From Seriola aureovittata (lineage: Eukaryota; Chordata; Actinopteri; Carangiformes; Carangidae), in contig NC_079366.1 of NCBI RefSeq assembly GCF_021018895.1, positions 29,763,771 to 29,827,770 on the forward strand: a stretch of DNA of 64,000 nt, in the 5' to 3' direction. Positions 4,265 through 55,146 of the stretch are shown here, piece by piece. Both the position numbers and the translations under genes were made by a program. How positions within the stretch are numbered: position 1 is the stretch's first letter; each line of letters begins with the position of its first letter. A model generated the notes under the pieces. The model was not told the DNA's origin. It made no database searches and was given only the letters and a program-made list of their open reading frames with translations.

Positions 4265-7200
4265 ATGAGTGATTGTGGGGATGAGGAGGAGAAGCGACCA
4301 GTGTCACAAGGACCCATCGATCTGTCTGCGCCGATTCAGGCTTATGATCCATTGCCGCCTGATGAAGTCTTAGATTCACCCGTCAGCCATGAAGCTGGAT
4401 CCTCACACAGACCGTAAGCTCACACTGTTTATGCTGTAAACTTGCTAATTAAAGGCAACTGAGCCTCAGGCTGAAACACAGAAACAGATAACGTCTCTAT
4501 CTACTTATATTTGATATTGTTGATCAGTCCAATAGCAGCAGGGACAAAAGAGTTCTTAAATCTATTAGTTCTGCATCTTGGCAGTTTGTACCTGCGACCG
4601 AACGGAAGCAGTATGAACTCCCTGAACGAAGGGTGGCTCCGATTGGCCAGAATTCTCTGGGCCTTGTTCAGAGCCCTGACCTTATATAGGAAGGGAAGGT
4701 AGGGCTGCAGCTAATGATTATGATCCCAGGTGGAGGTAACTAAGGACTTCAGTATCGATTAAATGTAGTAGAATGTAAGTGTATATGTAAGTTAAAAGGT
4801 TTCAGGCAGATTGTGCAAACGTTGTGTTGATAGAAATTAAAAAGTTAAATGAGAAGTTAAATAACATCCTCAAATAACAGGTTCATGTCTGTACAATAAA
4901 CAGGAAGCTACATTCAGGAGAAGGTTAGCTTAGCTTAGCACAAAGACTGGAAACACTCAGCCTGTCTCTGTCTGAAGGTGATGACATCACATATGAGCAA
5001 CTGTAAATATACTGCAACTAATCAACTCTGTAATTACAGATCTCCTCCTATGCGATTGAAGAGGCGTAAAACTAAATGGCATCGAGCTGTCAGTGATCTC
5101 CTTTGGAAACAGTTCAGGTTTGGATTTTGTCACTTCCTGTTTTATTTTGTAGTTGGTTTCCTTGTGTGTCTTAATGTTTTTACTTCCTGTCTTGGTCCTG
5201 TTTTTCTGTGTGGTGATTGTCTGCCCCGCCCTAATGTGTTTCACCTGTGTTCAATCACCTTTGTGTCTATATAGTCTCTCTGTGCTCCCCTTTGTCTGTC
5301 GGTTCGTCTGTTCATGTCGGCTGTGGTATCCCCTCTGTCTCTGGTTGTTGTTCCTTGTGTGCCCTCGTGCTTAGGTTTCTTGTTTTGTTGGTTCACCCAT
5401 TTTGTAAGTTCTTCAGTTAATAAACTTTTTTGCACCTCATTCCCCTGTGTTTGCTCCATTTGGGTTTACCGTGACACCAACCTCCCTCGCTATAAGATCC
5501 TCAAATAACACGTTCATGTCTGTACAATAAATAGGAAGCTACATTCAGGAAAAGGTTAGCTTAGCTTAGCACAAAGACTGGAAACAAGGGGAAACACTTA
5601 GCCTGTCTCTGTCTGAGGGTGACGAAATCACCTGTCAGCAACTGTAAATATACTGTAACTAATCAACTCTGTAATTACAGGCCTCCTCCTGGTGAACTGT
5701 CAGATGCTCAGTGTGAACAGCTGGCATCAGAACTGACATCCAACCCCTTTTACAAACAGCTGGATCTGAGTAGAAACTCTCTGAAGGAATCAGGAGCAGA
5801 GCTGATTTGTGCTGCACTGGAGAGTCCAGGCTGTAGACTGGAGACCCTCAGGTCAGACTGACTTCATCAGGTCTTTGTAAAATAAGAATATTATGTGGAT
5901 ATTAGTGACTGTTTTCAGACCACACTAATCACAGAGCCCTGTCTCCGATGATAAAAAGGATTGAATGTGGCACAGGAATGTGAACACTGGTGTTAACAAC
6001 CTTCAAACAAAATCAGCTGTTTAATCAATGAGAAGTGAAGGAAAAGACGATGTAACTGAACAGTTTACCAGCTTCACACTTTCTTCTTTATTTAGACTGA
6101 GTGACTGCGTCTTGTCAGAGAGATGTTATGCTTCACTGGTCTCAGCTCTCGAGTCGAGGCAGTCCTCCCTGAGAGAGCTGGACCTGAGTGGAAACAAGCA
6201 CCTGAAGGATTCAGGACTGAAGCTGTTGTCTGCTGGACTAAAGCATCCATTCTGCAGACTGAAGACTCTGAGGTAAGTTGGATTAATGTCAGAGGGTCAG
6301 TGGTTCGATCCCCGGCTCCTCTAGTCTACAGGTTGAAGTGTCCTTGGGAAAGACACTGAACCCCACACTGCCTCAGATGCCTGTTCCATCAGTGTATGAG
6401 TGTGTGTATGGTAGTAGGCCTTATGTGTGCAAGAACGTGCTATATGAATGTGGTTTATAGTGTAAAGACTAGAGAAGCATCTTATAAGTGCAGAGCATTC
6501 GTATGAATTGTTTATCTTTAATGCATTTTGGTTGTTTTGTAGGTGGAAGGGTTTTTGACTGTTAGTAAGTCATATCTCATCACAGTCTCACAGTAGCACA
6601 TTTCATCATCAGTAGAACAACAGAGTCTCAGCTTTTCTTTCTTTACAGACTTGTGTGCTGTGAACTGACGGAGAGCAGCTATGCTTCTCTGCTCTCAGTG
6701 CTTGAGAATAACTTCAGACTGAGAGAGCTGGACCTGAGTGGAAACTGTCTGCAGGATTCAGGAGTGACGAAGCTGTGTGCGGGACTTAGGAGACCATTCC
6801 GTTTCTTGGCGACTCTGAGGTCAGACTGTCTTTATTAGGTCTTTGATATGAATATTAACTAATCATTACAGTGACCCAGTCTAAGAGCAAATGATGCGTA
6901 ATTGTAAAGCTTAAATGACGTAAATTTGATCATCTGTCCTAAGAGGGTCCTTTCAGACGTGTCTGTGTGCAGCCCAAACTTTAGGACAGCATCAACTGTA
7001 CACACCATCTGAACACGTCTGCCTGTTTCTGATTATAAGAATATGAGAGACTGTCTATTAGCTTGTCTGCTGCAGTGTTGGGCCTCTATCAACCCACCTC
7101 CTCTTATACCTCAAGGGAAAGTATTGCTTGTAGGTGGATTAAAACAGTCAGATTCAGATAGAATAGCCTGAATGTGCAGTAGCAGTATGATATGTCTGAT

Positions 7201-9438
7201 CCTCATATGAACCATTACAGGGAACTCTAGGTGTTTGAAATTGAGCAAGAGTTAAACATCTACACTGTCTCCTATAACCTGCTTGCTGTTCTTTGTTCTT
7301 AATTCAGAATTAGCTGCTGCAGTTTGTCAGAGAACAGCTGCAGTTCTCTGGCTTCAGCTCTGAAGTCCAACTCTTGTCGTCTTGAAGAACTGGACCTGAG
7401 TCTCAACCAGCTGCGGGACTCAGGAATAAAGGCGTTGTCTGTTGGACTGGAGAGTCGTGGCTGTAGACTGAAGACTCTGAGGTAGAGAATTTCTTTTCCG
7501 TCTGAGTGAAATTTCAAAACCAGAATTTGCATGTTCAGATCATCCTCTCTCTGCAGGTTGATAAGCTGTGAGTTCTCAGATGAGGGCTGCGCTTCTCTGG
7601 TGTCAGCTCTGAAATCCACGGCCTCTAATCTGACTGAGCTGGATCTCAGTGGGAACCAGCTGCATCACCAAGGAATGACGCTGCTGACTGAATATGTGAA
7701 AAGTTCACATTGTAAACTGCAGACTCTAAGGTCAGTGGAAGGTCAAAGGTTGTGGTAGACAGATTCATTCTGGCCAGCACAGAGTTTACACATTTAGAGG
7801 AGGAAGAAAAGAGAATGGAGATTTAATCATTAGGCAGATGCTTCCCACCTTCAGTATTAACTCTCCTAATTCAAACCCACAGAGTGGACAGGGGACAAAA
7901 CTTGATCACCGCTGACATCAGTACGACACGTGAGTATTGACAAAGAAAACACATTAAAAAACACAAGCAACATTTCAAAAGAAACAAGTTCAAAGCGAGA
8001 GAACACAACCTCAGCCGTCACCCACATTCTTTATATGTGGTTGTGGGCTGACGGGAGACAGTTTATACTGTATCTATAAACTACAGGAGAGACTGGTGCT
8101 GCAGCATCACACCTGCAGCAAACACTGTCACTACTGCTGCTCCTGTAACGAGGAAGCTCATCGACTCAAAATGAACATTTTAGCAAAAATCTAAATTCAT
8201 TTACATACTAATTTGAATTAATATAATATTATATACAGTGTATATGTATGTATATATATATATATATATAAAAATATATAAAATGTTAAAAGTCTTAAAT
8301 TTTATGTGAACACTGCAGAAACGCTGTGCTCCACCGATTGAGGGCAGAGTCTCTGAACTTTTTCTGATCTTCCCTTTTTTTTCATTGGATACACAACAGA
8401 CGCAGCTACTGATTTGTCTGAGGAGGCGGAGGAGAAAGAAGTGGTAGAGGTGAGAGAGCAGAAGTTCACACAAAAATGTTACTCATGCAGCACCAATAAC
8501 ATTGCAGGTGACACAGGTTTGAGGAAGATTAAACATCTTTTCACACCTGGTGGATTGAGGATTTAATGTAATAGGTCGTGACAAACATTAGAGTCTTAAG
8601 CCTGGATTTTAAAGAACTGAGATTTACTTTGGCTCTGTTCAGACCTGGCACTAACATCCGTCTCAGGTGATCTGGTCACAAGTGGACAACTCTGAGTTCA
8701 GGACCCAAGACACATTTAAGATCCAATCACTCAGTCCACATTCAGAGATGGTTGGAGCCACATTGAAGGACCACCTACTCTGCTGAGGTCCTGGTCCCTT
8801 TGAACCACATATATATTTACACACAGTGTTTTACTTGTGGCCCGTCACAATAACAACAATGACTGGTACATGTTTATTTTCTATTTGCTTTTTTACTATT
8901 TCAAGTTGCTAAAACTTGTTTCAGCGCAGTGGAATGATTCACTCAGCTCCTGCTTGTCCCACTCTCTCCCTCCCTCCCTCCCTCCCTCCCTCCCTCCCTC
9001 CCTCTCTCTCTCCCTCACAGCCATCTGAAGATGCAGCTTTCTTTTGACTTTTTTCCCATAACACCTTGCATTTCTTGCAAAAAAAAACACACATATCCGG
9101 GTCATTTTAACAATAATTCCATGTACTTGATTGATCTCTCTATCCTTACATTGTGTTCTCAGGTTTATACTGAAAGGGTATCGAATGTTTTCATTCATAG
9201 CACACAACTACCAGACTAACTCTGTGCATTTCTGAATTACAGGGCGTATCAAGGTCCTCAGGACATCACAGTGCTGGCATATCAGACAGGTAACAATAAA
9301 ATGTTAGGGGGAAAATGTGATCTCAGTGACTTTGATTGTTGGTGTTGGACGGCTGGTTGGAGTTTTTCTGAAACTTCATAGAATAATAATACAATTAATT
9401 TAATGATACAATTTAGTGTCATTTAACATTCTCACACA

Positions 9439-9482
<44 letters not shown>

Positions 9483-10255
9483 GTACAGTATATACTGTAA
9501 CTGCCTGTCATATTAACTGCCTTTAAATCTGCTGTTTTAGGTCTTCAGGTGGTGGTTTGTACACAAGTAAGTGAAGAACATGTATTTTTGGATCTGGGTG
9601 AACTGAACCTTTAAGGATTAAAGAAGCTCCTCACCTCCATCTCTGTGAAGCCTGACATGGCAGAGTGTTGAACTGGTTATCTCTTATTGGCTGTTTGGTT
9701 CTAGGAGATATCTTTCTGTTCACATTAAAACAGATCATTACATCACCTTTATTATTTAGAGATGCCTTTTTTAATGTCTCTTTATTTCATAATGGCATTT
9801 TCATGACTAACTTTTGTTTCCTGTCACTTTTCATGACAGATATGCTGCTGCAACCTGTCTCCAGAGTGCGGACTCCTATATTTTCTTATGTATGGACCTT
9901 AAATGTTTTAATTCACTTTACAGCACACGACTAGAAATAATGTTTTGAAACTAACTCTGTGCATTTCTGAATTACAGGGCGTATCAAGGTCCTCAGGACA
10001 TGACAGTGCTGGCATATCAGACAGGTAACAATAAAATGTTTTCTCTGCTTTGACTGTCAATAAGCTTTATTATTAGTATCAAGTAGACAATTAACAGTAG
10101 CTTCAGTTAATGTTGACATCAAACATCAGGAGGCGGAAAATGTGATCTCAGTGACTTTGATTGTTGGTGTTGGACGGCTGGTTGGAGTTTTTCTGAAACT
10201 TCATAGAATAATAATACAATTAATTTAATGATACAATTTAGTGTCATTTAACATT

Positions 10256-10302
<47 letters not shown>

Positions 10303-11077
10303 GTACAGTATATACTGTAACTGCCTGTCATATTAACTGCCTTTAAATCTGCTGTTTTAGGTCTTCAGGTGGTGGTTTGTACACAAGTAAGTGAAGAACA
10401 TGTATTTTTGGATCTGGGTGAACTGAACCTTTAAGGATTAAAGAAGCTCCTCACCTCCATCTCTGTGAAGCCTGACATGGCAGAGTGTTGAACTGGTTAT
10501 CTCTTATTGGCTGTTTGGTTCTAGGAGATATCTTTCTGTTCACATTAAAACAGATCATTACATCACCTTTATTATTTAGAGATGCCTTTTTTAATGTCTC
10601 TTTATTTCATAATGGCATTTTCATGACTAACTTTTGTTTCCTGTCACTTTTCATGACAGATATGCTGCTGCAACCTGTCTCCAGAGTGCGGACTCCTATA
10701 TTTTCTTATGTATGGACCTTAAATGTTTTAATTCACTTTACAGCACACGACTAGAAATAATGTTTTGAAACTAACTCTGTGCATTTCTGAATTACAGGGC
10801 GTATCAAGGTCCTCAGGACATGACAGTGCTGGCATATCAGACAGGTAACAATAAAATGTTTTCTCTGCTTTGACTGTCAATAAGCTTTATTATTAGTATC
10901 AAGTAGACAATTAACAGTAGCTTCAGTTAATGTTGACATCAAACATCAGGAGGCGGAAAATGTGATCTCAGTGACTTTGATTGTTGGTGTTGGACGGCTG
11001 GTTGGAGTTTTTCTGAAACTTCATAGAATAATAATACAATTAATTTAATGATACAATTTAGTGTCATTTAACATTCT

Positions 11078-11108
<31 letters not shown>

Positions 11109-13193
11109 GTACAATATATACTGTAACTGCCTGTCATATTAACTGCCTTTAAATCTGCTGTTTTAGGTCTTCAGGTGGTGGTTTGTACACAGGTAAGTGA
11201 AGAACATGTATTTTTGGATCTGGGTGAACTGAACCTTTAAGGAATAAAGAAGCTCCTCACCTCCATCTCTGTGAAGCCTGACATGGCAGAGTGTTGAACT
11301 GGTTATCTCTTATTGGCTGTTGTTTGGTTCTAGGAGATTTATTTTTGTGCACATGAAAATAGATGATTACATATAAAAATCCCCTTTTTAAAACGATTTC
11401 ATGATGGCATTTTCTTGACTACCTTTTATTTCCTGTCACTTTTCATGTCAGAAGGGATTCTGCAACATTTCGGTGGCTCACCATCATATTTGGCAGGGAG
11501 ACCAAAAAGAGTTGAGTCTTTCTTACCTGATGACAAAATATATGTAAGGATATTTAATGTTTTTAGTTAGTTTAAGTTATGTTTAGAAAAAACTAATTTT
11601 GTGCCTTTCTGAATCCCAGGAGCTCTCAGGTCATTATGATTCACACGCTAAACCAAAAATACCAACTCACCTTTTCAGTACTCTGGGTAAGTGAAAAAAC
11701 ATACTTTTGGATTTGGGTAAACTGAACCTTTAAAGCTCCTCCAGTATAAAGGTCTGTGTCCATGTGTAGTGTGATTATAGATCAGCTCTAGCTTCTATAT
11801 TAATACTGTGAAAGTATCAAAGCCTCAGTCCACAGAGAAATGCACACAGCCTGTATTCAGAAACTGAGCCTTAAAACCAGCCGTCAGGACTTCTGGAACT
11901 TTGTGATGTCACAACAAAGCAGTCACCAAGCCCCGCCCACCTGGACCCTCCATCCAAACCTTGCAGGATTTGGTTTCTCTGAGTGTTTTTACCTGAAATC
12001 TGCTATATTTTTATTGGATCACTCAGAAAACAGTCAGCCAATCAGAAGAGAGGCTCAGAGCCTCCTCTCTTCTGATTGGCTCACTGACCTGTTGTTACTA
12101 GAGCTCCAGAGAGAAGCCTGAGAGAGGAGATGTAAAACTACACTGAGATGGTTTTTGGTTCCTGGTTCAGTATTGAATTGGCTGCGTGTTAGTAAACTGA
12201 AGGTCCAAGATGGCCGATATTAAATAAATAAATATGATACTATTAAATAAGTAAACACAATAATAAATATGTAATATGTAAGTGAACCAATTCTTTGTGA
12301 CTTTTAATACTAACATTTAACCTTCTTTTGTTGAAGTTTTAATGGAATTAATTTAAATTTGATCTTAGCCAGTACTATTAAAATGGCCTCAATATCTTCT
12401 TATTTCAAAATAGATTTTTTTTTTCAACACCAACTTTTATTTCCTGTCAATTTTCATGACAGCGTCGGGGACACCAGGAAAAACACGGTATCCAAACGCA
12501 GCAAAGACAAAGCTTGAGTCATCTGAGGACAAGAGCGAGGTTATGAAGGTGAGAGTGAAACATTTATGGGTCCATGTTTAAGTTGATGGACACAGCTTCA
12601 AGGCAGATTACAAGCCATATTACTATAAAATCCTTTGCTCCTCAAAGTGAAACATCAAAGCTTAAAGGTGTAATGTGTAAGATCGTGCTACTTGATCCAC
12701 CTCCATAGGGGGCAGCATTTCACCTTTTGCCCCTGTCCAGTTAATCATGTTGTTTTCTCCATGTTCCTTATAATTTGTTATGTGTATGTGCATTTATTGT
12801 TGAGAGTTAAAATTGTTGAGAGCACTGGAACAAATTATGAATGTTATAATTCACTTTACAGCACACGACTAGAAGTAATGTTTTGAAACTAACTCTGTGC
12901 ATTTCTGAATTACAGGGCGTATCAAGGTCCTCAGGACATCACAGTGCTGGCATATCAGACAGGTAACAATAAAATGTTTTCTCTGCTTTGACTGTCAATA
13001 AGCTTTATTATTAGTATCAAGTAGACAATTAACAGCAGCTTCAGTTAATGTTGACATCAAACATCAGAAGGGGGAAAATGTGATCTCAGTGACTTTGATT
13101 GTTGGTGTTGGACGGCTGGTTGGAGTTTTTCTGAAACTTCATAGAATAATAATACAATTAATTTAATGATACAATTTAGTGTCATTTAACATT

Positions 13194-13238
<45 letters not shown>

Positions 13239-15931
13239 GTACAGTATATACTGTAACTGCCTGTCATATTAACTGCCTTTAAATCTGCTGTTTTAGGTCT
13301 TCAGGTGGTGGTTTGTACACAAGTAAGTGAAGAACATGTATTTTTGGATCTGGGTGAACTGAACCTTTAAGGATTAAAGAAGCTCCTCACCTCCATCTCT
13401 GTGAAGCCTGACATGGCAGAGTGTTGAACTGGTTATCTCTTATTGGCTGTTTGGTTCTAGGAGATATCTTTCTGTTCACATTAAAACAGATCATTACATC
13501 ACCTTTATTATTTAGAGATGCCTTTTTTAATGTCTCTTTATTTCATAATGGCATTTTCATGACTAACTTTTGTTTCCTGTCACTTTTCATGACAGATATG
13601 CTGCTGCAACCTGTCTCCAGAGTGGGGTCTCCTACATTTTCTTATGTATGGACCTTAAATGTTTTAATTCACTTTACAGCACACGACTAGAAATAATGTT
13701 TTGAAACTAACTCTGTGCATTTCTGAATTACAGGGCGTATCAAGGTCCTCAGGACATCACAGTGCTGGCATATCAGACAGGTAACAATAAAATGTTTTCT
13801 CTGCTTTGACTGTCAATAAGCTTTATTATTAGTATCAAGTAGACAATTAAGAGGAGCTTCAGTTAATGTTGACATCAAACATCAGGAGGCGGAAAATGTG
13901 ATCTCAGTGACTTTGATTGTTGGTGTTGGACGGCTGGTTGGAGTTTTTCTGAAACTTAATAGAATAATAATAGAATTAATTAGTGCCACGGGTGCTCAGC
14001 TCCGAGTCACTCCTCTACAGCTAGAATAGCTGAGAGGAGTGCCTCAGGGCGGAGCCTCGGGGCATCTATTAATCTTCCGTTTCGGGTTTATTATTCTTCC
14101 GCCAAATTTCGGCGCGTAACTCGTCCCGCAGCTTTGAGAAAACCCTGGTAATATATACATCAAAACGTGCGTCTTGATCCCGAAAGAGGTGCTATGACTT
14201 TTGGTGTTAAAATTCCAATTTTTCCCAAAGTTATTCCCAAAAAACTGGGAATAAATAATGCATTAGAAATGCATTGGAATTTTCTTTAGAAACCCACCTT
14301 TTTTCTACAAAATTGCACCTTTTTTCTGAGTCACCCAGCTCTCTCATACCTGCACGTAGAAATGTGATTCAAACTATAAAATGGAGGAAAACTTCTGCTC
14401 TCTCAAAAAGATAGGAACTTTTTTTACATAACATGTAAACTTTTCAAACTGTGAGCACTCAAAGGAGGAGTGCAAATCACTTTTTCTTCAAAGTTAGAGT
14501 GAAAGCGTCAGTTGGCTAGAGTGCGTGAAGCAGTAAAAAATAACCTTTATTTTTATTTTTAACTCGAGCTCGCGGCCAAACCGTAAAAAGGAGACAAATA
14601 ATTCTTTCTGAAAATGTAGACATAGTTGTTGGGATTCATAAAATGTAACTTTGAAAGGCAGGGTCTGCACAAAATTTAAACAGGGGTGCCGAGTCCGGCA
14701 GCAATACCTGTCTCACTCTCATTGACACCTAATGTAATCGTCTTTTTTTTTCAAAAGAATCTCCCTCTGTCTTCGCACTGAGCTTACGCACTCATTTTAA
14801 GGAATATCTGAATAAAATAGAAACTGTAGAAACTTCTGGCTTCAGTGTCTGTCACGGTGTTTTCGGTTTTTGAAAAGAAGTAACGTTTTTTTCATAATTT
14901 GCAGTTGTTTGAAGCCATGTAGAAGCCAAATTCTGGGCAGATTTTCACATTGCCATGGCAACGGTAGCTCCTGACCTGTGTGCGTGCGCCTAGCAACCAG
15001 ATAACCAACTCTCCAAGCTCTGCTAGCTTTACATTAGCCACATGTTAGGTCTTAAATTACATTTAGTTAGGTCTTAAATATGTAAGTCCATTTACTGCTT
15101 CCTTCGTTGCTTTTCTTTTTGTTTTGTTAAAAGAGTGAATGAAGTTGTGACGGTCTCCGCTGAGACAGAGGAGAGGAGAAGCTACTAGCCCTCTCTCGCT
15201 GTCACTTCTAGTCGTGTTGCTCTTCTCCCCAGTAATGTTAAATTTAGCACAGAAAAAAACATAATAGTGGTAATTTAAATAGCGGTTCAGGGGATTTATT
15301 AACCCTCAGGGGTCCCTCTGTCCTTTTATGGACATTTTCTTCACTTTTCTTTTTTGATTTGCTGATCATTTTGGCTGTGTTACAGCTGAAGGTATGGATT
15401 TCTGCAAGAAAGTGTCTTTTTTTTTACATATTTTTAGAATCTAATGTCAGTTACTGTTACAGGTCTATTATACACTGGTAACACATTTTGTACCCTCTGG
15501 GGTTCCTCGCGTCCAAAAAAGGACACACAAAGAAAATGCTATAAAATCATCATATATCAATATTTTTTTCTGCTTTTTTTGCATAAATCTCTTAAACCAC
15601 TTCAGTTCTGCTCAAACCTACCAAATGTTTATTAGATTTCAGGATTTTAACCCTTTAAATGCCAGTTTGAAGACATGTCGCCTCTTGTTTTATTGTAAAA
15701 AACAACACAGAATATGAGATATTTCCCACATAATACATGATGGAGGGATGTGACATTGTTTTATATCAGAGTCTTTTATATCAAGACATTTCTCAAAACC
15801 AGAATATGATCAGGGTGACTTTTGAACACTGGAAATAAATCATGTACTCATCCCGGCAGTAGCCCCCGTGGCACTCAAAATTTCCCTGGAATTTTCTAGT
15901 TTAATGATACAATTTAGTGTCATTTAACATT

Positions 15932-15990
<59 letters not shown>

Positions 15991-18900
15991 GTACAGTATA
16001 TACTGTAACTGCCTGTCATATTAATTGCCTTTAAATCTGCTGTTTTAGGTCTTCAGGTGGTGGTTTGTACACAGGTAAGTGAAGAACATGTATTTTTGGA
16101 TCTGGGTGAACTGAACCTTTAAGGACTAAAGAAGCTCCTCACCTCCATCTCTGTGAAGCCTGACATGGCAGAGTGTTGAACTGGTTATCTCTTATTGGCT
16201 GTTGTTTGGTTCTAGGAGATTTATTTTTGTGCACATGAAAATAGATGATTACATATAAAAATCCCCTTTTTAAAACGATTTCATGATGGCATTTTCTTGA
16301 CTACCTTTTATTTCCTGTCACTTTTCATGTCAGAAGGGATTCTGCAACATTTCGGTGGCTCACCATCATATTTGGCAGGGAGACCAAAAAGAGTTGAGTC
16401 TTTCTTACCTGATGACAAAATATATGTAAAGATATTTAATGTTTTTAGTTAGTTAATAGCAAATAACTGTTAAATTATGTTTAGAAAAAACTAATTTTGT
16501 GCCTTTCTGAATCCCAGGAGCTCTCAGGTCATTATGATTCACACGCTAAACCAAAAATACCAACTCACCTTTTCAGTACTCTGGGTAAGTGAAAAAACAT
16601 ACTTTTGGATTTGGGTAAACTGAACCTTTAAAGCTCCTCCAGTGTAAAGGTCTGTGTCCATGTGTAGTGTGATTATAGATCAGCTCTAGCTTCTATATTA
16701 ATACTGTGAAAGTATCAAAGCCTCAGTCCACAGAGAAATGCACACAGCCTGTATTCAGAAACTGAGCCTTAAAACCAGCCGTCAGGACTTCTGGAACTTT
16801 GTGATGTCACAACAAAGCAGTCACCAAGCCCCGCCCACCTGGACCCACCATCCAAACCTTGCAGGATTTGGTTTCTCTGAGTGTTTTTTACCTGAAATCT
16901 GCTGTATTTTTATTGGATCACTCAGAAAACAGTCAGCCAATCAGAAGAGAGGCTCAGAGCCTCCTCTCTTCTGATTGGCTCACCGACCTGTTGTTACTAG
17001 AGCTGCAGAGAGAAGCCTGAGAGAGGAGATGTAAAACTACACTGAGATGGTTTTTGGTTCCTGGTTCAGTATTGAATTGGCTGCGTGTTAGTAAACTGAA
17101 GGTCCAAGATGGCCGATATTAAATAAATAAATATGATACTATTAAATAAGTAAACACAATAATAAATATGTAATATGTAAGTGAACCAATTCTTTGTGAC
17201 TTTTAATACTAACATTTAACCTTCTTTTGTTGAAGTTTTAATGGAATTAATTTAAATTTGATCTTAGCCAGTACTATTAAAATGGCCTCAATATCTTCTT
17301 ATTTCAAAATAGATTTTTTTTTTCAACACCAACTTTTATTTCCTGTCAATTTTCATGACAGCGTCGGGGACACCAGGAAAAACACGGTATCCAAACGCAG
17401 CAAAGACGAAGCTTGAGTCATCTGAGGACAAGAGCGAGGTTATGAAGGTGAGAGTGAAACATTTATGGGTCCATGTTTAAGTTGATGGACACAGCTTCAA
17501 GGCAGATTACAAGCCATATTACTATAAAATCCTTTGCTCCTCAAAGTGAAACATCAAAGCTTAAAGGTGTAATGTGTAAGATCGTGCTACTTGATCCACC
17601 TCCATAGGGGGCAGCATTTCACCTTTTGCCCCTGTCCAGTTAATCATGTTGATTTCTCCATGTTCCTTATAATTTGTTATGTGTATGTGCATTTATTGTT
17701 GAGAGTTAAAATTGTTGAGAGCACTGGAACAAATTATGAATGTTATAATTCACTTTACAGCACACGACTAGAAGTAATGTTTTGAAACTAACTCTGTGCA
17801 TTTCTGAATTACAGGGCGTATCAAGGTCCTCAGGACATCACAGTGCTGGCATATCAGACAGGTAACAATAAAATGTTTTCTCTGCTTTGACTGTCAATAA
17901 GCTTTATTATTAGTATCAAGTAGACAATTAACAGCAGCTTCAGTTAATGTTGACATCAAACATCAGGAGGCGGAAAATGTGATCTCAGTGACTTTGATTG
18001 TTGGTGTTGGACGGCTGGTTGGAGTTTTTCTGAAACTTCATAGAATAATAATACAATTAATTTAATGATACAATTTAGTGTCATTTAACATTCTCACACA
18101 CACACACACACACACACACATATGTACAATATATACTGTAACTGCCTGTCATATTAACTGCCTTTAAATCTGCTGTTTTAGGTCTTCAGGCGCTGATTGG
18201 TTCAGAGGTAAGTGAAGAACATGTATCTTTGGATCTGGGTGAACTGAACCTTTAAGGATTAAAGAAGCTCCTCACCTCCATCTCTGTGAAGCCTGACATG
18301 GCAGAGTGTTGAACTGGTTATCTCTTATTGGCTGTTGTTTGGTTCTAGGAGATTTATTTTTGTGCACATGAAAATAGATGATTACATATAAAAATCCCCT
18401 TTTTAAAACGATTTCATGATGGCATTTTCTTGACTACCTTTTATTTCCTGTCACTTTTCATGTCGGAAGGGATTCTGCAACATTTCGGTGGCTCACCATC
18501 ATATTTGGCAGGGAGACCAAAAAGAGTTGAGTCTTTCTTACCTGATGACAAAATATATGTAAGGATATTTAATGTTTTTAGTTAGTTAATAGCAAATAAC
18601 TGTTAAATTATGTTTAGAAAAAACTAATTTTGTGCCTTTCTGAATCCCAGGAGCTCTCAGGTCATTATGATTCACACGCTAAACCAAAAATACCAACTCT
18701 CTTCAGTACTCTGGGTAAGTGAAAAAACATACTTTTGGATTTGGGTAAACTGAACCTTTAAAGCTCCTCCAGTGTAAAGGTCTGTGTCCATGTGTAGTGT
18801 GATTATAGATCAGCTCTAGCTTCTATATTAATACTGTGAAAGTATCAAAGCCTCAGTCCACAGAGAAATGCACACAGCCTGTATTCAGAAACTGAGCCTT

Positions 18901-21900
18901 AAAACCAGCCGTCAGGACTTCTGGAACTTTGTGATGTCACAACAAAGCAGTCACCAAGCCCCGCCCACCTGGACCCACCATCCAAACCTTGCAGGATTTG
19001 GTTTCTCTGAGTGTTTTTACCTGAAATCTGCTATATTTTTATTGGATCACTCAGAAAACAGTGAGCCAATCAGAAGAGAGGCTCAGAGCCTCCTCTCTTC
19101 TGATTGGCTCACTGACCTGTTGTTACTAGAGCTCCAGAGAGAAGCCTGAGAGAGGAGATGTGAAACTACACTGAGATGGTTTTTGGTTCCTGGTTCAGTA
19201 TTGAATTGGCTGCGTGTTAGTAAACTGAAGGTCCAAGATGGCCGATATTAAATGAATAAATATACTATTAAATAAGTAAACACAATAATAAATATGTAAT
19301 ATGTAAGTGAACCAATTCTTTGTGACTTTTAATACTAACATTTAACCTTCTTTTGTTGAAGTTTTAATGGAATTAATTTAAATTTGATCTTAGCCAGTAC
19401 TATTAAAATGGCCTCAATATCTTCTTATTTCAAAATAGATTTTTTTTTTCAACACCAACTTTTATTTCCTGTCAATTTTCATGACAGCGTCGGGGACACC
19501 AGGAAAAACACGGTATCCAAACGCAGCAAAGATGAAGCTTGAGTCATCTGAGGACAAGAGCGAGGTTATGAAGGTGAGAGTGAAACATTTATGGGTCCAT
19601 GTTTAAGTTGATGGACACAGCTTCAAGGCAGATTACAAGCCATATTACTATAAAATCCTTTGCTCCTCAAAGTGAAACATCAAAGCTTAAAGGTGTAATG
19701 TGTAAGATCGTGCTACTTGATCCACCTCCATAGGGGGCAGCATTTCACCTTTTGCCCCTGTCCAGTTAATCATGTTGATTTCTCCATGTTCCTTATAATT
19801 TGTTATGTGTATGTGCATTTATTGTTGAGAGTTAAAACTGTTGAGAGCACTGGAACAAATTTTGAGTACTTGTAATACAAACAGTAGGTTTTTATTTACC
19901 TTTAGGGGACAGTGCATGACACATGGGTGTCAGACTACAGCAGTATGAGGAAGGGATGATGACATCATCACAAAGGCAGAATCAGATAATACGGTTTATT
20001 GCCAGGTAATTTTTTAACTTACAAGATATTTGGCTTGGTGTTTGGTGCAGGATACAATAAACATATTAACAGGAAATAACATTTAAAAGGTAAAATACTG
20101 CAACAGTCAAAAAGAATATGAATATTGAATATTCAAAAAATAAAATTATGAAAAAAAAGCTATGTACTTGAAGTGTTGCCAAAACTCCTGCTGAGCAGGA
20201 TGTGCAAAAGATCACAGTATAGACAGTATGTGTTGTGTGCAGGGATGATACTCAGGTGTTACTGAGATGTGGTTGTTGATGAGGCCAGACGCAGAAGAAA
20301 AGGCAGGTGCTGGTCCTGATACAGACAAACACGTGAGAGGACAATTAGTTTAAATCATACAAGTTATTTATATTCAAACATGTTAGGTCTGCTGTGTGTG
20401 TGTATAATAAATAAAAGGATAGATATGAATATACTTAAATATATACAGCATTATGCAGTGGATCCTGATCCAGCTGGTTCTGGATCAAACAGTTTCTTTG
20501 TCTTACTTGTAAAAGAAAAGTTACTGATACATCCAGCTGGACAGCAGCCGCAGCAACAGGCTGAATTCTACCAAACTGAAAGGTCAACGTCGTACATTTA
20601 TGCCACTTCAAGTGTTTGTCAGTACGGTTTGTCTTTTGCACAAATGACACCTTTCACTACAGACCAACATCAGATGTTACTCACCTGTGTAACAGAAAGG
20701 TTGCAGCTCAGCATCAAACCCAAATCTTTACTCTCAGGAGTCTCCTGAGGTGAAAAACACCAGCATTCACCTGAGTCACCTGACGCCCCTGTATTTGTAT
20801 TTGTATTATTTTTAAAATATTTTTTCACATTTATTGTAAATAATTAAAAAAAATCCATTCACATTTAAGCTACTTGACATTGATTATTTATTTGTGTCTT
20901 GAGAGAAGCATAATTTCAGTTTTAGTCGCAACATGTTTTTCATATAATTCCTGTCACCGTTATATTCAAATGTTTTCTCTGACCTGATATAATAATTATT
21001 TTTAATCTAATTTTGCACCTTTCTGTAATCCAGGGCCCATCACACTTTACACCTGAAGTGTTAAATGAAGGTGGAAACATCTCGTACAGGTAATCAGACC
21101 TTGTCTGTTTTGGAAAGTGACCAAACTTGTTGTTTTATGTTTTTATCATTAAAGGATCATTTTTATCATCTTCTTGAGGTTGCAAATGTCTGCCACACAG
21201 CAGGGTCATGCTAAATTGTTAGCGTGGAGCATCACAGTCCACTGCATGTAGGTGATAAAAGGGCCAAAAACAGACTCAGAATATTAGAGTAGAGGAATGG
21301 CTTCTGATGAGCTCAACCTAGGCGCTGGACATGACGCTGGAAGGTGAAAGGGGAGGAGGAGCGTCGCAGCAGTCTGCCTAAGGGGACAGCTGACAGCAGG
21401 AGAGAGCAGATTTAAAGCTTGACAACGACATGATTGGCTGATTGAGATCGTGGTGAAATATGAGAAAGAGAAACGGTTGTGAATGAAAATGAGGCGTAAA
21501 GATAGTCTTCCTGATTGAATCTACGATAAGCTTCATTTCTCCGTCATACAGGTTCTGGGGCCCATGTCCAGGTGTGTTCCTGTGTGATATGACTAAGCTG
21601 GCGTTTACGATGACTGGGGCGGGGAAGCTGACATACAAGGTCGTCCGCTGGGATGAGGAGCTCCTCCGCTCAGCTGGAAAGACGGCTGCAGGTCTGCTGT
21701 TTGACATCAAGTGTTCTGAGGATGCTGTCTCTCAGCTGCACTTCCCACACTGTGAAACACAACTTGGTAAATATGCACAGTAATGAGAAATAATTAGTTA
21801 AAACCACAGAGTGGAATTAAAAAGAGTTTTTCGTGGTGCTGACGGCTCTTTGTGTTCACAGCATCGCTCTCTGAGGCCCTGTCTGTTGTCCACATCAGTG

Positions 21901-24900
21901 ATGATGGAATGAGCATCCTTAAGCCGCGGGAAATAACAGACACACATGTGATTGTGGACATCCCTCACCTCTCTGCCTTTGGCTTGGTATGGGATATCAT
22001 TAAAAGGTTTCTAAACATCGGGAAACCAATAAGGGGCCAAGTTCTGCTGTTTCGCCAACCGACGTACAAAAGACAAAGCCGAAAACTCAATGTGTTTCTG
22101 CTGCCAGATAACGTCCCGGTGCAGGAGGTAAAAGCTTTAGTAATTACTTTATCAGTCAGTGACACATCACTTCTCTCTATATAGTTCCTGTAAGTTGGTT
22201 ATGCTATAATTAATTTAATATAATTGGGATAATGAAGTCACTGTCTAACAAAAATGTTCCAACGCTCCTGAAGGTGAAAGGGCAACTGGACGAAGCTGAG
22301 TACATTGTGGCTCCTTCCTTCTGTCACCTCATTAGAGGCCAAACGTACAGTCTGGACTGTCCTGAGGCCTATATAGTACCTCCGGTGAGTATGTCAAATA
22401 CAATTGTCTGTTAGTAGTTGATGAAGTAAATGAAATAGGTATCCTGAGTATTATACGAAATTATTGGCAAATGCTTTTCTGATTAGATAGTTTAGTGTAG
22501 TTCCTGTGTGCACTCACACACAATATCCCAATATGCAATAATGTACTGAAATGCACCAATGGTTTTTAAACTAAGAAAGGATTTCTGTGGAGGGGTTTCA
22601 GAGACAAACCCACAGGAGAAATATCACCCAAGCTCCTCCGAGCTGTTTAACTTGTTTTGGGTTATTATTTTTGGTTTTGCAGGTGACAACACTCCACTTG
22701 TCAACCTTGTTTCCAGCAGCAGCAGCAGCAGTTGTTATAGGCTGGTCAGCAGCAAAGAGCAGACAGACAGTCAGCTGGTGAACATAGTGGAGCAGGTGGA
22801 GACCAAAACCAGAGCTATAAGAGAGGGAACACTGGACTGAGATTCATCAGGTGGATGCAAACACAACTCGCAACATCAGTGTTGTTGTGTGTAAAAAAGC
22901 AACTCTTTGCTAACATGTTTTCTATATCAACTTTATAATATGATAATTCTGTGTTGTCATGTTGTAGTTGTGTTGTAGTTATCGACCTCACACAGGAAGG
23001 CTCAGTATCCACTTTTCTTTTCAGCTGTTTTGGTCTCTACCAACTGATAAGAAAAAATAAGTTTGTCTGTCTGCTGTTTGATGCTGAGCAGGTAATGTAC
23101 AGTGGGGTTTTTGAGCTTTTAGTGTCCAACAGCTGTGGGCTGCAGCTGGAAACTGGGTTGATGAAAGCAACACAAATTCATTACGGCAAATAAAATGCAT
23201 TTATTACATTACGAGCAGGAGAGAGAGAAGTTATCTGTAAATGCTAAGCTAAAGAAATTAGCAGATCTGAATAGCATGTAAACCAGTGGTTCTCAAAGTG
23301 GGGTCCGGGGATCCCAAAGGGTCCTTGAGGGGGTTCCCCAGCAAAAAGGAGAATAATTTATTTTCACCGTAATTACATCCATAAGTAACATAATGACAGA
23401 ATGTATCACTATTTCGGTCGTGGGTTCAAACACTTACTTATCAGATGGGGCGTCCTGGGACAAAATCTTATCAATTTGGGGTCCATGTTCTAAATAGTGT
23501 CATTTTAGGTGTCCTTGATGTGAAAAAGTCGAGCCAAAAAGTTTCTAAATCTAGCGACTTATGCTCTAAGAAGAAACCACATGCACCGATTCATTTTGAA
23601 AGAAAAACAGCCAATGAGGAAACTCCAACTCAGTCACACATTCAAGTGACCAATAATGAAATTATGATCACTCAGTCAGTCACAAACATTCACGATTACA
23701 GGTCTGGCCCCGTTATTCTGGTCCAGCCAAAAACAATGAGCTTAAAGAAGCTAAAAAGATCAGTAGAGCTGAGGGGAACTGCAGAGTCAGGTGACCAACA
23801 CCTTTCAGGTTACACAGCCATTTAGTTCATTGTTAATATAAACAAAAAATATATAGAAAATTCTATTAGTACAGCTTTAACTTTATATGGTCACTTAATA
23901 TATGGTGAAGTAACCATGAGACATTGTTAATGATTTACAGTTTGCAGTATTTGACTTCAACTATGGACCAAATTACCACCCGACTTTTGAGATTCGGCTA
24001 ACGGCAAGCGAGCAGTTAGCGATTGTGAAAGTCCGAGACCAAGAGAAGAAACACGTCTGGGAGTATCCTGTTGAACTAACTGGTACAGAAGGCTTGATTA
24101 ATTACTCATTCACACATTTGAACATTCATGACTCTTTTAATTCACACAATTCTTCTTTTGTTCTACGTGTAACAATTGATGTTTGTCACCGGAGCCTTGA
24201 ACAGGGTTATAGATTAGGGTTGCACGGTATACCGGTACCAGTATAGTACCGCGATACTAGAGTTTTGAAAACGGTACTATACCGGCATTTAAAAACAAAC
24301 GGTACTTTTATTTCATTTTATTGAATGCAAATGAATTGGTAAATTGGAGCCTGTCTCTTTAAGCACAGCGAGGCCAGCGAGTGTGACGTAGTTGCCCGAG
24401 AGGATGTAAGCCGCGTCCCACGCGCACTCGCATGTTTAGACTGAGGAGGAGAGAGGAACGACAAGTCGCGTCTTAGACAGACGGAGCGGGTTGAAGAAAA
24501 TACAGTAGATAGAGATGGCAGCTGCAGAAAAGCCCGAACTTGTGGTTAAAATGGGGCCCGAAGTTCGGTGTGGAAATATTTCGGGTTCAAACCGAACGAT
24601 AAAGGCGAGCCACTGAACCCAGAGGCACCGCAGTTCAAGCGGTGCTACAAAGTGTGTCTCGCAGAAGGAGCCAACACTTCAAACCTGTCGAAACATTTAA
24701 AGGACAACCATGCGGACTTGTTCCGAGACTTCAGTCAAGAACGACAGGTGATAATGTTGTTCACCTGTTCACTGCACTGTAATGTCAATGAAAGAAGTAC
24801 AAAGCCCCTCCCAGCCCAGTAGTAAACCTACAGTAGCCTGCATACAGAGAGCTAAAACATGTCCATGGTTAATAAATATATTAAAAAATATATTTTTAAA

Positions 24901-25728
24901 AATTAAATTACATTCTTTAAATATTTAAATAACCCATTAAGGCAATACATAATATAATGAAATATTTTTTACAAAAAGTATCGAAAAGTATCGAAATACA
25001 TATTGGTATCGGTATCGAAACAGAAATTTGGTATCGTGACAACCCTATTATAGATAGATGCTAAATGCTAATGCTTCACTGTCTTGCCATCTGTTTCTGG
25101 TTCAGATTCAAAACCAGCCTCAAGTTCAGCTTCCCAACCCCCAGCCAGTGAACCAGCCTCGCCCCCCGGCCCAGTTGAAGAAGGAGGTGAGATACACTGT
25201 TGAATGACAGTCAGAAAACCTAGTGAATGTTCTCTATGGAGTTTTAAACACGTCTCATCAAGTCTAATTCTTGTCTTAAATCTCTGAATATGCACCTCTC
25301 TAACTCAATTTAATCAATAAATCATGGATCAAATGCAGAGTTCCCCACAAGGATTAAACAACGCTCTGCACTAAATGTTGAAATTGATTTCTAGCCCTCC
25401 AATCAAAGTAACTTATCTTCCAGGTTGTGATCCAAGTGGGAGAAATCTACCAAGCAGAGGGGAGGACGAGGAGGAGCTGTTCTCTGCTCGGGCAGAGTTT
25501 ATTGCCAGAGTGTCCATTTCTGTTCTAAAAGACCTGATGGATCAGCTTCTGCAAAAGAGGGTTATAAACGAAAGGGAAAAGGAGTCGATCCCAGCGTTGC
25601 CCAGAGCAGACAAAGCAGAAGGCCTGATCGACATGGTGCTAAGGAAGGGAAATCCAGCCTGTAGACTTTTGATCGACACCTTCTGTGAGGTGGATCCGTA
25701 TCTTTCTGCACAGCTGGAGTTAAACTGA
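4265..25728 (+). CDS. NLRP1-like sensor without NACHT: LRR - repeated linker - FIIND - CARD
   Basis: Predicted inflammasome-type cytosolic sensor. Exons: 4265-4413, 5681-5851, 6096-6272, 6649-6819, 7308-7481, 7557-7730, 7883-7929, 8400-8449; six cassettes of 3 or 5 small exons from 9243 to 19573 (listed separately); then 21034-21089, 21552-21766, 21862-22127, 22274-22384, 23941-24082, 25106-25186, 25424-25728. Every junction is in phase, giving 1202 codons plus stop. Approximate residues: 1-49 acidic start, 50-339 five ribonuclease-inhibitor-type LRR exons (phase 2 on both sides), 340-371 acidic linker, 372-811 repeated linker, 812-1074 FIIND, 1102-1202 CARD. Family knowledge: NLRP1 and CARD8 FIIND-CARD proteins self-cleave and activate caspase-1. 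The NACHT domain expected before the LRRs is absent; exon 1 (ending CC) joins the first LRR exon in phase. No orthologue symbol is assigned. AATAAA follows at 25921. The exon count relies on hand-placed splice sites. Confidence 0.8.
4867..5700 (+). repeat. Direct duplication of an intron plus start of the first LRR exon
   Basis: Segment 4867-5055 is repeated at 5497-5695. Both copies run from cctcaaataaca, through the ggttagcttagcttagcacaaagactgg phrase, to the acceptor tctgtaattacag. After the acceptor, copy B opens the real LRR exon (cctcctcctgg). Copy A begins the same way (tctcctcctatg) but then loses the LRR frame, so it is a dead partial exon. The space between the copies holds the LTR-like block at 5128-5476. 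Confidence 0.75.
5128..5476 (+). mobile_element. LTR-like or similar dispersed repeat (solo)
   Basis: A 349-bp T-rich block begins TGTCACTTCCTG and ends TTACCGTGACA (TG...CA ends). It has an internal TATA-like tctatatag at 5266-5274 and AATAAA at 5419-5424. That order resembles U3-R-U5 of a solo LTR. No convincing target-site duplication was seen, so another repeat class is possible. Confidence 0.4.
5681..7730 (+). other. LRR-encoding exon block (five exons) of the NLRP1-like gene
   Basis: The five exons (171, 177, 171, 174, 174 bp) each encode about two ribonuclease-inhibitor-type repeats. Each carries the signature LxELDLSxNxLxDSGxxxL and ends in CRLKTLR or a close variant. Each exon begins and ends after the second base of an Arg codon (AG|A or AG|G), which is the standard teleost NLR arrangement and lets exons be gained or lost. 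Family role: ligand- or self-regulation surface. Confidence 0.9.
6281..6470 (+). mobile_element. tRNA-derived SINE relic
   Basis: It lies directly after the second LRR exon. Box-B-like GGTTCGATCCC is at 6302-6312, followed by the fish SINE phrase gtccttgggaaagacactgaacccca and a diverged tail. The exact ends are uncertain. Confidence 0.6.
8958..9018. repeat. (CCCT)n then (CT)n microsatellite
   Basis: About eleven ccct units pass into a short ct run, within the intron before cassette 1. Reading frames across it on both strands are repeat artefacts. Confidence 0.95.
9243..9977 (+). repeat. Exon cassette 1 (3-exon type) of the NLRP1-like gene
   Basis: Exons 9243-9289 (47 bp, phase 0 to 2), 9541-9566 (26 bp, 2 to 1) and 9840-9889 (50 bp, 1 to 0) total 123 bp, 41 codons. 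The peptide is Ser/Gly-rich and starts [16 protein letters not shown]. The first intron lacks about 85 bp that are present in the other cassettes. A (CA)n tract lies at 9431-9479. Confidence 0.8.
9978..10797 (+). repeat. Exon cassette 2 (3-exon type)
   Basis: Exons 9978-10024, 10361-10386 and 10660-10709, with the same lengths and phases as cassette 1. The 820-bp unit is almost identical to the start of cassette 3. The 47-bp exon has His-to-Asp (CAC to GAC) relative to cassettes 1, 4, 5 and 6. Confidence 0.8.
10798..12915 (+). repeat. Exon cassette 3 (5-exon type)
   Basis: Exons 10798-10844 (47), 11167-11192 (26), 11452-11543 (92, phase 1 to 0), 11620-11686 (67, 0 to 1) and 12463-12548 (86, 1 to 0): 318 bp, 106 codons. 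The last three exons replace the 50-bp exon of the short cassette. They encode a Pro/Lys/Ser-rich, low-complexity peptide with [15 protein letters not shown] and an acidic [10 protein letters not shown] end. The fourth intron contains a MITE-like element. Confidence 0.8.
11730..12125 (+). mobile_element. Truncated copy of the TTAA fold-back element (in cassette 3)
   Basis: Starts TTAAAGCTCCTCCAGT and matches the left arm of the complete element at 32211-33048 for over 300 bases. It ends in a hairpin around 12036-12082 (gccaatcagaagagagg and its inverted copy). Equivalent copies sit in cassette 5 (from 16628) and cassette 6 (from 18758). The insertion therefore predates amplification of the long cassette. 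Confidence 0.75.
12916..13733 (+). repeat. Exon cassette 4 (3-exon type)
   Basis: Exons 12916-12962, 13297-13322 and 13596-13645. The 50-bp exon differs from cassettes 1 and 2 at three bases (CGG to GGG, ACT to TCT, ATA to ACA), all amino-acid changing, while the surrounding introns are nearly unchanged. Confidence 0.8.
13981..15900 (+). mobile_element. Helentron/Helitron2-like non-autonomous element
   Basis: The other cassettes read aattaatttaatgat at this place; here about 1.92 kb separates aattaat from tttaatgat. The element opens with (TT)AGTGCCACGGGTGCT. Near its right end it carries the inverted partner gcccccgtggcact (about 15861-15876), followed by a short tail ending TTTTCTAG|T. There is no target duplication and the insertion point lies in a T-run. 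Asymmetric terminal inverted repeats with a CTAG-type end fit the Helentron/Helitron2 group. No Rep/helicase frame is visible, so it is a non-autonomous copy. Confidence 0.6.
16628..17030 (+). mobile_element. Truncated TTAA fold-back element (in cassette 5)
   Basis: Same element as at 11730-12125, at the equivalent intron position and with the same hairpin end. It came in with the cassette duplication. Confidence 0.7.
17815..19860 (+). repeat. Exon cassette 6 (5-exon type, most diverged exons)
   Basis: Exons 17815-17861, 18182-18207, 18467 (or 18470)-18558, 18651-18714 and 19488-19573. The 26-bp exon is heavily changed. The 67-bp exon has lost 3 bases (64 bp, frame kept). The 86-bp exon has ACG to ATG (Thr to Met). 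The acceptor of the 92-bp exon is mutated (cag to cgg), but an AG 3 bases inside keeps the frame. Similarity to the other cassettes ends near 19860. Confidence 0.75.
18758..19160 (+). mobile_element. Truncated TTAA fold-back element (in cassette 6)
   Basis: Third intronic copy of the element at 11730-12125, at the equivalent place in the long cassette. Confidence 0.7.
21034..24082 (+). other. FIIND (ZU5-UPA) domain exons of the NLRP1-like gene
   Basis: Five exons: 21034-21089, 21552-21766, 21862-22127, 22274-22384 and 23941-24082. The ZU5 part opens with FTPEVLNE...[11 protein letters not shown] and carries [11 protein letters not shown]. The third exon has [13 protein letters not shown] and [11 protein letters not shown], which align with the autoproteolysis region of human NLRP1. 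The catalytic His (model H912) and nucleophilic Ser (model S939) are 27 residues apart, as are H1186 and S1213 in human NLRP1. The residue before the Ser is Leu rather than Phe. The UPA part ends with [15 protein letters not shown] and [11 protein letters not shown]. Confidence 0.85.
23283..23345 (+). mobile_element. hAT-type terminal fragment
   Basis: The phrase cagtggttctcaaagtgggg followed by tccgggg resembles the terminus of widespread hAT-family elements. No matching right end was identified in the intron. Confidence 0.4.
24215..25047 (+). mobile_element. hAT transposon relic with 8-bp target-site duplication
   Basis: The element starts TAGGGTTGCACGG and ends GTGACAACCCTA (inverted TAGGGTTG termini). 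It is flanked on both sides by TTATAGAT (24207-24214 and 25048-25055), the 8-bp duplication expected of hAT. Inside, an open frame at 24568-24822 encodes a BED-type zinc-finger start (WKYFGF, then C..C and H...H with [13 protein letters not shown]). The rest of the transposase is missing. It sits in the intron between the last FIIND exon and the linker before the CARD. Confidence 0.85.
25424..25728 (+). other. CARD-encoding last exon of the NLRP1-like gene
   Basis: Entered in phase 1 from 25106-25186, which encodes a Ser/Pro-rich spacer. The exon ends at TGA 25726-25728. The death-fold pattern is clear: [20 protein letters not shown], then a polar loop, [15 protein letters not shown], and [15 protein letters not shown]. 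It is similar to the C-terminal CARD of fish NLRP1 and ASC-like proteins. Family role: recruits caspase-1-type proteases after release from the FIIND. Confidence 0.88.
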
Positions 25729-27790: not shown

Positions 27791-27994
27791 GAATGAACCG
27801 GAGTTTAAGTTCTTTAAAACAGATGCACCGTGTTTTACAACATCCTATCTACCTGTAAACTCCCAGACTTTCACAGTTCGTGCTCCCAATGATCTCTGAC
27901 GAGAGAGAAAGTGACGTGAAGGTGTCTTCTCTGAACGGAAACGTCAGGTGTGTGACGCTGCACGGTTTTTTGTTGTTGTCGTGGTTTTCAGGTC

Positions 27995-29051: not shown

Positions 29052-29111
<60 letters not shown>

Positions 29112-54770: not shown

Positions 54771-54819
<49 letters not shown>

Positions 54820-54820
54820 A

Positions 54821-54885
<65 letters not shown>

Positions 54886-54926
54886 ACACACACACGCACT
54901 CACTCACTCACTCACTCACTCACGCT

Positions 54927-54976
<50 letters not shown>

Positions 54977-55018
54977 CACACACACACTCACACACTCACA
55001 CACACACACACACACACT

Positions 55019-55050
<32 letters not shown>

Positions 55051-55110
55051 CACACACACGCACTCACTCACTCACTCACTCACTCACTCACTCACTCACT
55101 CACTCACGCT

Positions 55111-55146
<36 letters not shown>

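Follow-up and report, generated by a model that had tools for sequence, protein, structure and literature searches.

We analyzed a 64,000-nucleotide stretch of the Seriola aureovittata (kingfish) genome (contig NC_079366.1, positions 29,763,771 to 29,827,770; here called the window, to which all positions refer) and found that one of its genes, LOC130166142, contains six in-phase multi-exon cassettes at 9243-19573, in the order S, S, L, S, L, L, where S stands for short and L for long. Judging from its predicted domains, the gene is an inflammasome sensor of the NLRP1/CARD8-like type, and the cassettes encode a linker in front of its FIIND. In our estimate, the probability is about one-half that the array is the product of recent tandem amplification, by crossing-over, of a fast-changing pre-FIIND linker that probably serves as a protease or degradation tripwire.

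The anatomy of the array is firm. An original prediction had placed six tandem multi-exon cassettes inside one gene, and the same cassettes were recovered by a pattern search and in one open spliced frame of 1,227 codons running over 40 exons in our splice model (Table 1). The pattern search located 23 of the 24 cassette exons, borders included, while the 24th (E2 of cassette 6) fell outside the pattern; it was located directly in the sequence and trimmed to 26 nt in the splice model. All cassette exons have AG and GT borders except for the acceptor of cassette 6 E3L, where the AG has been lost, so that this exon begins 3 nt late, in frame, both in our model and in the NCBI models. The S cassettes 1, 2, and 4 have exactly the predicted exons of 47, 26, and 50 nt (123 nt, 41 codons). 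The ~106 codons expected of the long cassettes hold for cassettes 3 and 5 (47 + 26 + 92 + 67 + 86 = 318 nt, 106 codons) but not for cassette 6, which has an 89-bp E3 and a 64-bp E4 (47 + 26 + 89 + 64 + 86 = 312 nt, 104 codons). As predicted, each of the six starts and ends in phase 0. The array product covers residues 398 to 836 of the 1,227-residue protein, and these 439 residues (35.8%) agree with the ~440 residues and more than one-third of the protein anticipated. Copies in the 300-nt repeat families are 83 to 100% identical, which, together with the single open frame over 40 exons, rules out chance as an issue. The introns are also nearly identical, as had been proposed, but this does not extend to their CA tracts (~24, 21, 14, 20, 27, and 13 units in cassettes 1 to 6), to a deletion in cassette 1, or to a 1,918-bp insertion in cassette 5 (13982-15899) that is probably a transposable element. 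The description of the linker as low complexity was not borne out: its mean entropy over 25 residues is 3.41 bits, compared with 3.28 for the LRR part, 3.62 for FIIND, and 3.55 for CARD, and by composition "Ser/Gly-rich" is the better wording. As a separate observation, short inverted ends were noticed by eye at the 1.9-kb insertion.

TABLE 1 Features of the LOC130166142 gene and its cassette array
Feature	Position in window	Strand	Remarks
Whole gene, 40 exons, 1,227 residues	4265..25728	+	Seriola aureovittata LOC130166142; splicing, Pfam, NCBI proteins
Five LRR exons	5681-5851, 6096-6272, 6649-6819, 7308-7481, 7557-7730	+	PF13516
Exon N6	7883-7929	+	Phase 2 to 1; between LRR and array
Exon N7	8400-8449	+	Phase 1 to 0; between LRR and array
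Cassette 1 (S)	9243..9889	+	E1 9243-9289, E2 9541-9566, E3S 9840-9889; 90-bp deletion in intron 1
Cassette 2 (S)	9978..10709	+	E1 9978-10024, E2 10361-10386, E3S 10660-10709
Cassette 3 (L)	10798..12548	+	E1 10798-10844, E2 11167-11192, E3L 11452-11543, E4 11620-11686, E5 12463-12548
Cassette 4 (S)	12916..13645	+	E1 12916-12962, E2 13297-13322, E3S 13596-13645; three replacement changes relative to cassettes 1 and 2
Cassette 5 (L)	13734..17447	+	E1 13734-13780, E2 16049-16074, E3L 16334-16425, E4 16518-16584, E5 17362-17447
Insertion of 1,918 bp in intron 1 of cassette 5	13982..15899	.	No second long match in window
Alternative donor of cassette 5 E3L	After 16392, 33 nt upstream	+	Deduced from isoform X5 of NCBI
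Cassette 6 (L, 104 codons)	17815..19573	+	E1 17815-17861, E2 18182-18207, E3L 18470-18558, E4 18651-18714 (64 bp), E5 19488-19573
Lost first acceptor AG of cassette 6 E3L (reads GG)	18465..18466	+	Models take AG 3 nt downstream
FIIND, ZU5 part	21034-21089 (F0), 21552-21766, 21862-22127	+	PF13553; carries His937 and the Leu963-Ser964 site
UPA exons	22274-22384, 23941-24082	+	PF23679
Linker exon, CARD exon	25106-25186, 25424-25728	+	PF00619

Pfam domains in the 1,227-residue protein follow the order LRR, linker array, FIIND (ZU5-UPA), and CARD. The elements expected of the family were found: the ZU5 part of FIIND (PF13553; E value, 4.8e-42), UPA (PF23679; E value, 4e-26), and a C-terminal CARD (PF00619; E value, 2.7e-16). 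No NACHT domain was found by Pfam in the spliced model, introns being outside the scan, or in the precomputed Pfam lists of three NCBI models, and Pfam detected neither the N-terminal PYD of human NLRP1 in the spliced model nor any domain within the 188-residue stretch of cassettes 1 to 3. Carp and zebrafish NLRP1 are also reported to have no N-terminal PYD (PMC9978379). Exons N6 and N7 match the Xiphias linker with a score that beats all 500 shuffles. The gene is already deposited in public databases as an uncharacterized protein. By eye, an intron end appears duplicated at 4860-5045 and 5500-5687, ahead of exon B (5040) and the first LRR exon (5681).

The introns suggest how the cassettes are related. 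The acceptor-side introns of E3S, E3L, and E5 resemble one another far above shuffles (z scores, 11 to 24), those of E1 and E4 (z score, 7.6) and of E4 and F0 (z score, 5.6) exceed all 200 shuffles, and on the donor side the E4-E5 and E2-E3 introns are alike, whereas E1 and F0 showed no excess over their own shuffles. A z score near 5 is weak by itself, since a comparison of E2 with the first LRR exon reached 5.0 while scoring below the best shuffle. Whole-length kinship of E3S with E3L was also weak (10 of 500 shuffles reached the score). Because of the acceptor-side and donor-side kinship, we read the L cassette as two older A+B units and the S cassette as one such unit, and on this reading the array holds nine phase-0 units. 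Nearly all differences between the S and L cassettes fall in a single block (intron 2 from ~+126 on, E3, and the first ~27 nt of the next intron), the rest of the frame being common to both at high identity; such a mosaic is what crossing-over or conversion would be expected to leave. We therefore envisage an ancestral two-part unit, of which the A part would enter and the B part exit in phase 0, and which would have been duplicated and diverged into E1-E2-E3 and E4-E5, making the L cassette. The S cassette, without E4-E5, would fit a loss of that half from L. Both types would then have been multiplied and homogenized, the likeliest mechanism being unequal crossing-over or gene conversion between the nearly identical introns, and the frame could survive this because every unit border is in phase 0. 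The E4-E5 intron also carries a dispersed repeat (11730-12064) with further copies downstream at 32211-32545 and 32857-33049, one of them inverted.

Comparison with a congener bears on the age of the array. A search with an L cassette plus the FIIND start gave 77 candidates and a single protein at an E value of ≤1, S. dumerili A0A3B4T643 (307 residues), which begins inside E3L and contains a single copy each of E3L (with the short donor), E4, E5, and FIIND. Ten residues of its E5 are missing from all three kingfish E5 copies, indicating that the kingfish L copies were multiplied or homogenized after the split between S. aureovittata and S. dumerili. This and the few differences between copies agree with the recent amplification or homogenization originally proposed. 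The linker differs from that of S. dumerili at 12 of 70 residues (cassettes 3 and 5) or 14 of 69 (cassette 6) and FIIND at 11 of 215, that is, 17 to 20% versus 5% (Fisher's test, P = 0.003 and 0.0004). The faster change of the linker can mean either less constraint or selection.

Within the array, the S copies differ from each other at 2, 3, and 7 of 640 to 730 aligned sites, and the L copies differ at 16, 20, and 24 of 1,743 to 1,759. Six of the 20 differences between cassettes 3 and 6 (1,743 sites) are packed within 15 bp of E2; by eye, five of these are replacements and one is silent. Random placement would give such a burst with a P value of ~1e-5, the burst having been chosen after inspection, and no template for it with ≤3 mismatches was found elsewhere in the window, which the search covered. 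Between cassettes 1 and 4, 3 of 640 sites have changed; all three lie within the 50 bp of E3S, are replacements as read by eye, and were likewise chosen after inspection. E3L is identical over 92 bp in its three copies. A general rule that exons change faster than introns found no support among the 15 cassette pairs: an uncorrected P value of <0.05 was reached by pairs 3-6 (P = 0.026) and 4-6 (P = 0.0097) alone, both of them involving cassette 6. The alignment used for this test inflates intron 1 change in cassette 1 owing to its deletion, for which a separate comparison corrects.

Public models of the locus were compared with our splice model. With residues 439 to 900 as the query, a search of 5.8 billion proteins, in which 7,985 candidates sharing the most words and ~675 to 2,147 residues long were scored, gave three matches at an E value of ≤0.01, all of them S. 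aureovittata LOC130166142 models. These models are predictions, and their clusters record 16 member sequences. NCBI protein P0001 matches the 40-exon model, lacking only 11 residues at an alternative donor, and so does isoform X5. All three models splice one E3L at a donor 33 nt upstream. In isoforms X12 and X13, the same 11 residues are gone, in another cassette, together with 82 and 83 residues, respectively (two S cassettes), in frame; this gap is best read as cassette 1 E1 spliced to cassette 3 E2, and the one-residue difference between the two isoforms is that expected of two acceptors 3 nt apart. The predicted freedom to remove cassettes without a frameshift thus appears at the level of splice models. 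Transcripts skipping all cassettes had been named as evidence against the proposal, and none of the three public predicted models does so.

An AlphaFold model was obtained for isoform X13, which has two S cassettes fewer, with 39 sequences in the alignment. Over the whole model, the mean predicted local distance difference test (pLDDT) score was 66.4 and the predicted template modeling score 0.45. LRR, FIIND, and CARD were modeled with confidence, whereas residues 391 to 740 had pLDDT values below 50, mostly ~30, and almost no secondary structure. In Foldseek, the LRR part matched ribonuclease inhibitor and NLRP proteins, and FIIND matched rat NLRP1 of the DPP9 complex (7crw; template modeling score, 0.74 by target length; rank 22, after the LRR matches). 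A PDB sequence search led to CARD8 and NLRP1, the best match being CARD8 (7jkq; E value, 9.7e-15). Judged indirectly, from pLDDT and the divergence from S. dumerili, the protein has the unstructured, fast-changing stretch N-terminal to FIIND that characterizes tripwire sensors.

Relatives of the protein gave 222 matches, of which 120 were listed, three of them from LOC130166142 itself. We aligned FIINDs from 117 of the 120, leaving out partial matches and P0057, with that of the query (n = 118). The nucleophilic Ser is present in all 118 and the catalytic His in 110, and the query has both: His937 and Ser964 align with those of CARD8 and NLRP1. A role of this His in FIIND autoproteolysis has been described (PMC8081665). 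Ser is preceded by Leu in 96 of the 118 and by Phe in the other 22; Phe at P1 and the Glu at CARD8 position 279 are features of the mammalian members, and most aligned fish members, too, have Leu before Ser. Autoproteolysis of the kingfish FIIND is plausible because His937 and Ser964 are kept, despite Leu at P1 and at the Glu-279 position.

The region from the last LRR (or the protein start) to FIIND could be tested for repeats in 100 of the 120 listed proteins, the rest being too short or too long. Internal repeats above all 40 shuffles were found in 20 of the 100 among the matches listed, with ~2.4 expected by chance (100/41); P0032 and P0116, among the 20, are LRR pieces left by the cut, isoforms of one gene recur, and some cases are weak. 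Confinement of repeats to the pre-FIIND side was refuted by the control region, FIIND to the C terminus, in which 26 of 114 regions among the matches listed exceeded all 40 shuffles. Of these 26, 22 have 12- or 14-residue units and 11 are Toxotes isoforms, and units of at least 36 residues occur in 16 of 18 pre-FIIND cases (LRR pieces dropped) versus 2 of 26 control cases. By sequence, the 12- or 14-residue tandem repeats of P0029 to P0039 (Toxotes), P0059 (Sander), and P0119 (Semicossyphus) lie in the linker between UPA and CARD. P0020 of Thunnus thynnus, beyond the length limit and tested separately, has a 148-residue repeat and three KIX stretches.

For the exon that immediately precedes FIIND (E5 here), a profile was built from 26 proteins (27 nonredundant proteins less P0001), 55 of 121 being anchorable. 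It matches 71 of 119 pre-FIIND regions among the matches listed, a count that is not independent, since some of these proteins also went into the profile. The last cassette exon is akin to the exon directly before FIIND in many relatives. Two or more profile matches were found in 10 rows and in none of the shuffles in three rounds: LOC130166142 itself (four rows, one of them the query), S. dumerili P0049, whose match is a stretch that is acidic and partly simple, Trachinotus P0104 and P0106, Xiphias P0005, Channa P0007, and Melanotaenia P0042. A comparison of E1-E3 with Xiphias did not rise above shuffles (79/500 and 154/500 reached the score). KIX, SH3, occludin-homology, or PYD modules stand ahead of FIIND in P0020 and P0022 (Thunnus), P0042 (Melanotaenia), P0098 and P0101 (Acanthopagrus), and P0013 (S. 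dumerili), and some of these modules, or the adjoining linker, are repeated. Such varied modules may be baits, and gene fusions made by annotation are also possible.

A TAF5-like gene (TFIID-NTD2 plus WD40; 27965-31664) adjoins the sensor gene. Caranx melampygus P0010 continues into sequence matching 27965-29230 of this gene, and Channa P0028 is likewise joined to a TFIID-NTD2 domain, so the sensor locus is probably conserved, although the Caranx pre-FIIND stretch carries other repeats than that of kingfish. The likely ortholog P0057 (Seriola lalandi dorsalis LOC111659449), a model labeled low quality, has LRR joined to a reverse transcriptase stretch and followed by UPA-CARD, with the linker and ZU5 absent. 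Elsewhere in the window, Tandem Repeats Finder reported long simple arrays at 63000-63601 (GGTT-like) and 54746-55170 (ACAC-like).

In mammals, according to three reports, a cut on the N-terminal side exposes NLRP1 or CARD8 to the proteasome, which releases UPA-CARD (PMC5142783, PMC7857732, and PMC10359095). By analogy, we infer a tripwire function for the kingfish linker. The 439-residue array product would be a disordered leash before FIIND that offers the same peptides three to six times. Once the leash had been cut or marked for degradation, the proteasome would remove the N-terminal fragment and UPA-CARD would be freed, as in mammalian NLRP1/CARD8. Extra cassettes would repeat the same bait sites more often or lengthen the reach, and their number could shift quickly through recombination or splicing.

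Several points weigh against an amplified tripwire. The proven NLRP1 tripwire sits between PYD and NBD (PMC5142783), whereas the kingfish array lies between LRR and FIIND, and CARD8 Glu-279 is reported to be important for autocleavage (PMC3210808), a position at which the query has Leu; its P1 residue, Leu963, also departs from the SF/S pattern. The low pLDDT of the linker can stem partly from the shallow alignment. The S. dumerili model begins inside E3L, so a longer array upstream is possible there. In addition, repeats were gained in the control region, and the exons of the cassettes are not generally faster than their introns.

These last two points would also be expected if the array were merely tolerated, that is, if an unconstrained linker drifted neutrally, its introns recombining easily through CA tracts and identical blocks and its phase-0 units passing selection at any number. 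Such drift is a possibility to be taken seriously, though we do not favor it: between copies exons change mostly like introns, but the bursts in cassette 6 E2 and in E3S of cassettes 1 and 4 are confined to exons, both having been chosen after inspection, and drift does not readily account for the identity of the three E3L copies. The identical donors and acceptors in matching phases could instead serve as a splicing bank giving linkers of many lengths, with the choice of length as the function. The in-frame loss of two S cassettes in X12 and X13, their alternative acceptors, the upstream E3L donor of all three models, and the 16 member sequences in three clusters would fit, but the model isoforms may rest on reads that could be mapped to any identical cassette, and we consider this improbable. 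An assembly artefact, in which haplotypes or collapsed repeats were laid in tandem, seems very improbable. Assemblers do fail at nearly identical tandem copies, and the S. lalandi model is of low quality, without the linker and the ZU5 part; however, the copies carry private marks, namely, the 90-bp deletion (cassette 1), individual CA lengths, the E3S changes (cassette 4), the 1.9-kb insertion (cassette 5), and the E2 burst and lost acceptor (cassette 6).

Should the array be a tripwire, the number of bait copies would be a further route, besides point changes and gene duplication, by which inflammasome sensing could be altered, and a fast one, acting through recombination. The three L sets of kingfish and the one in the S. 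dumerili model can be compared within a single genus of farmed fish. If the array is neutral, it would neatly illustrate how, thanks to phase-0 units, a disordered linker can be enlarged by introns that share identical blocks. Speculatively, and at rather long odds, fish FIIND-CARD proteins could be a general switch that fires the CARD when the front is lost, in which lineages repeatedly multiply the module ahead (cassette exons, KIX, PYD, or linker units), bait copy number evolving under pathogen pressure and perhaps varying between kingfish individuals. No fish FIIND protein with amplified linker exons was found described in the literature covered (titles and abstract openings, subscription papers being mostly outside).

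Compared with mammalian NLRP1, the kingfish protein has the same order of LRR, FIIND, and CARD, the FIIND fold (7crw), the catalytic His and Ser, and, toward the N terminus, an unstructured stretch that evolves fast, as described for NLRP1 (PMC5142783). In contrast to NLRP1, the kingfish spliced model has no PYD or NACHT, has Leu-Ser in place of Phe-Ser, and has its expanded stretch, built of amplified exons, between LRR and FIIND rather than between PYD and NBD. CARD8 shares the disordered stretch directly before FIIND-CARD; its N terminus acts as a tripwire, and CARD8 alone is described with a tripwire region directly before FIIND (PMC10359095). Unlike CARD8, the kingfish protein has LRR, a repeated linker, Leu at P1, and Leu at the Glu-279 position. 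Other fish FIIND-CARD proteins belong to the same family and also show repetition upstream of FIIND, the repeated modules being KIX in Thunnus thynnus, 36-residue units in Acanthopagrus, PYD in S. dumerili, part of the linker beside one SH3 domain in Melanotaenia, and a linker exon spaced at 61 residues in Trachinotus anak; however, their unit sequences are unrelated to the kingfish cassettes and are known here from proteins alone. Tandem duplicated exons, too, are phase-symmetric units that can be added without a frameshift, but they are usually mutually exclusive single exons, whereas the kingfish units are multi-exon and used in series.

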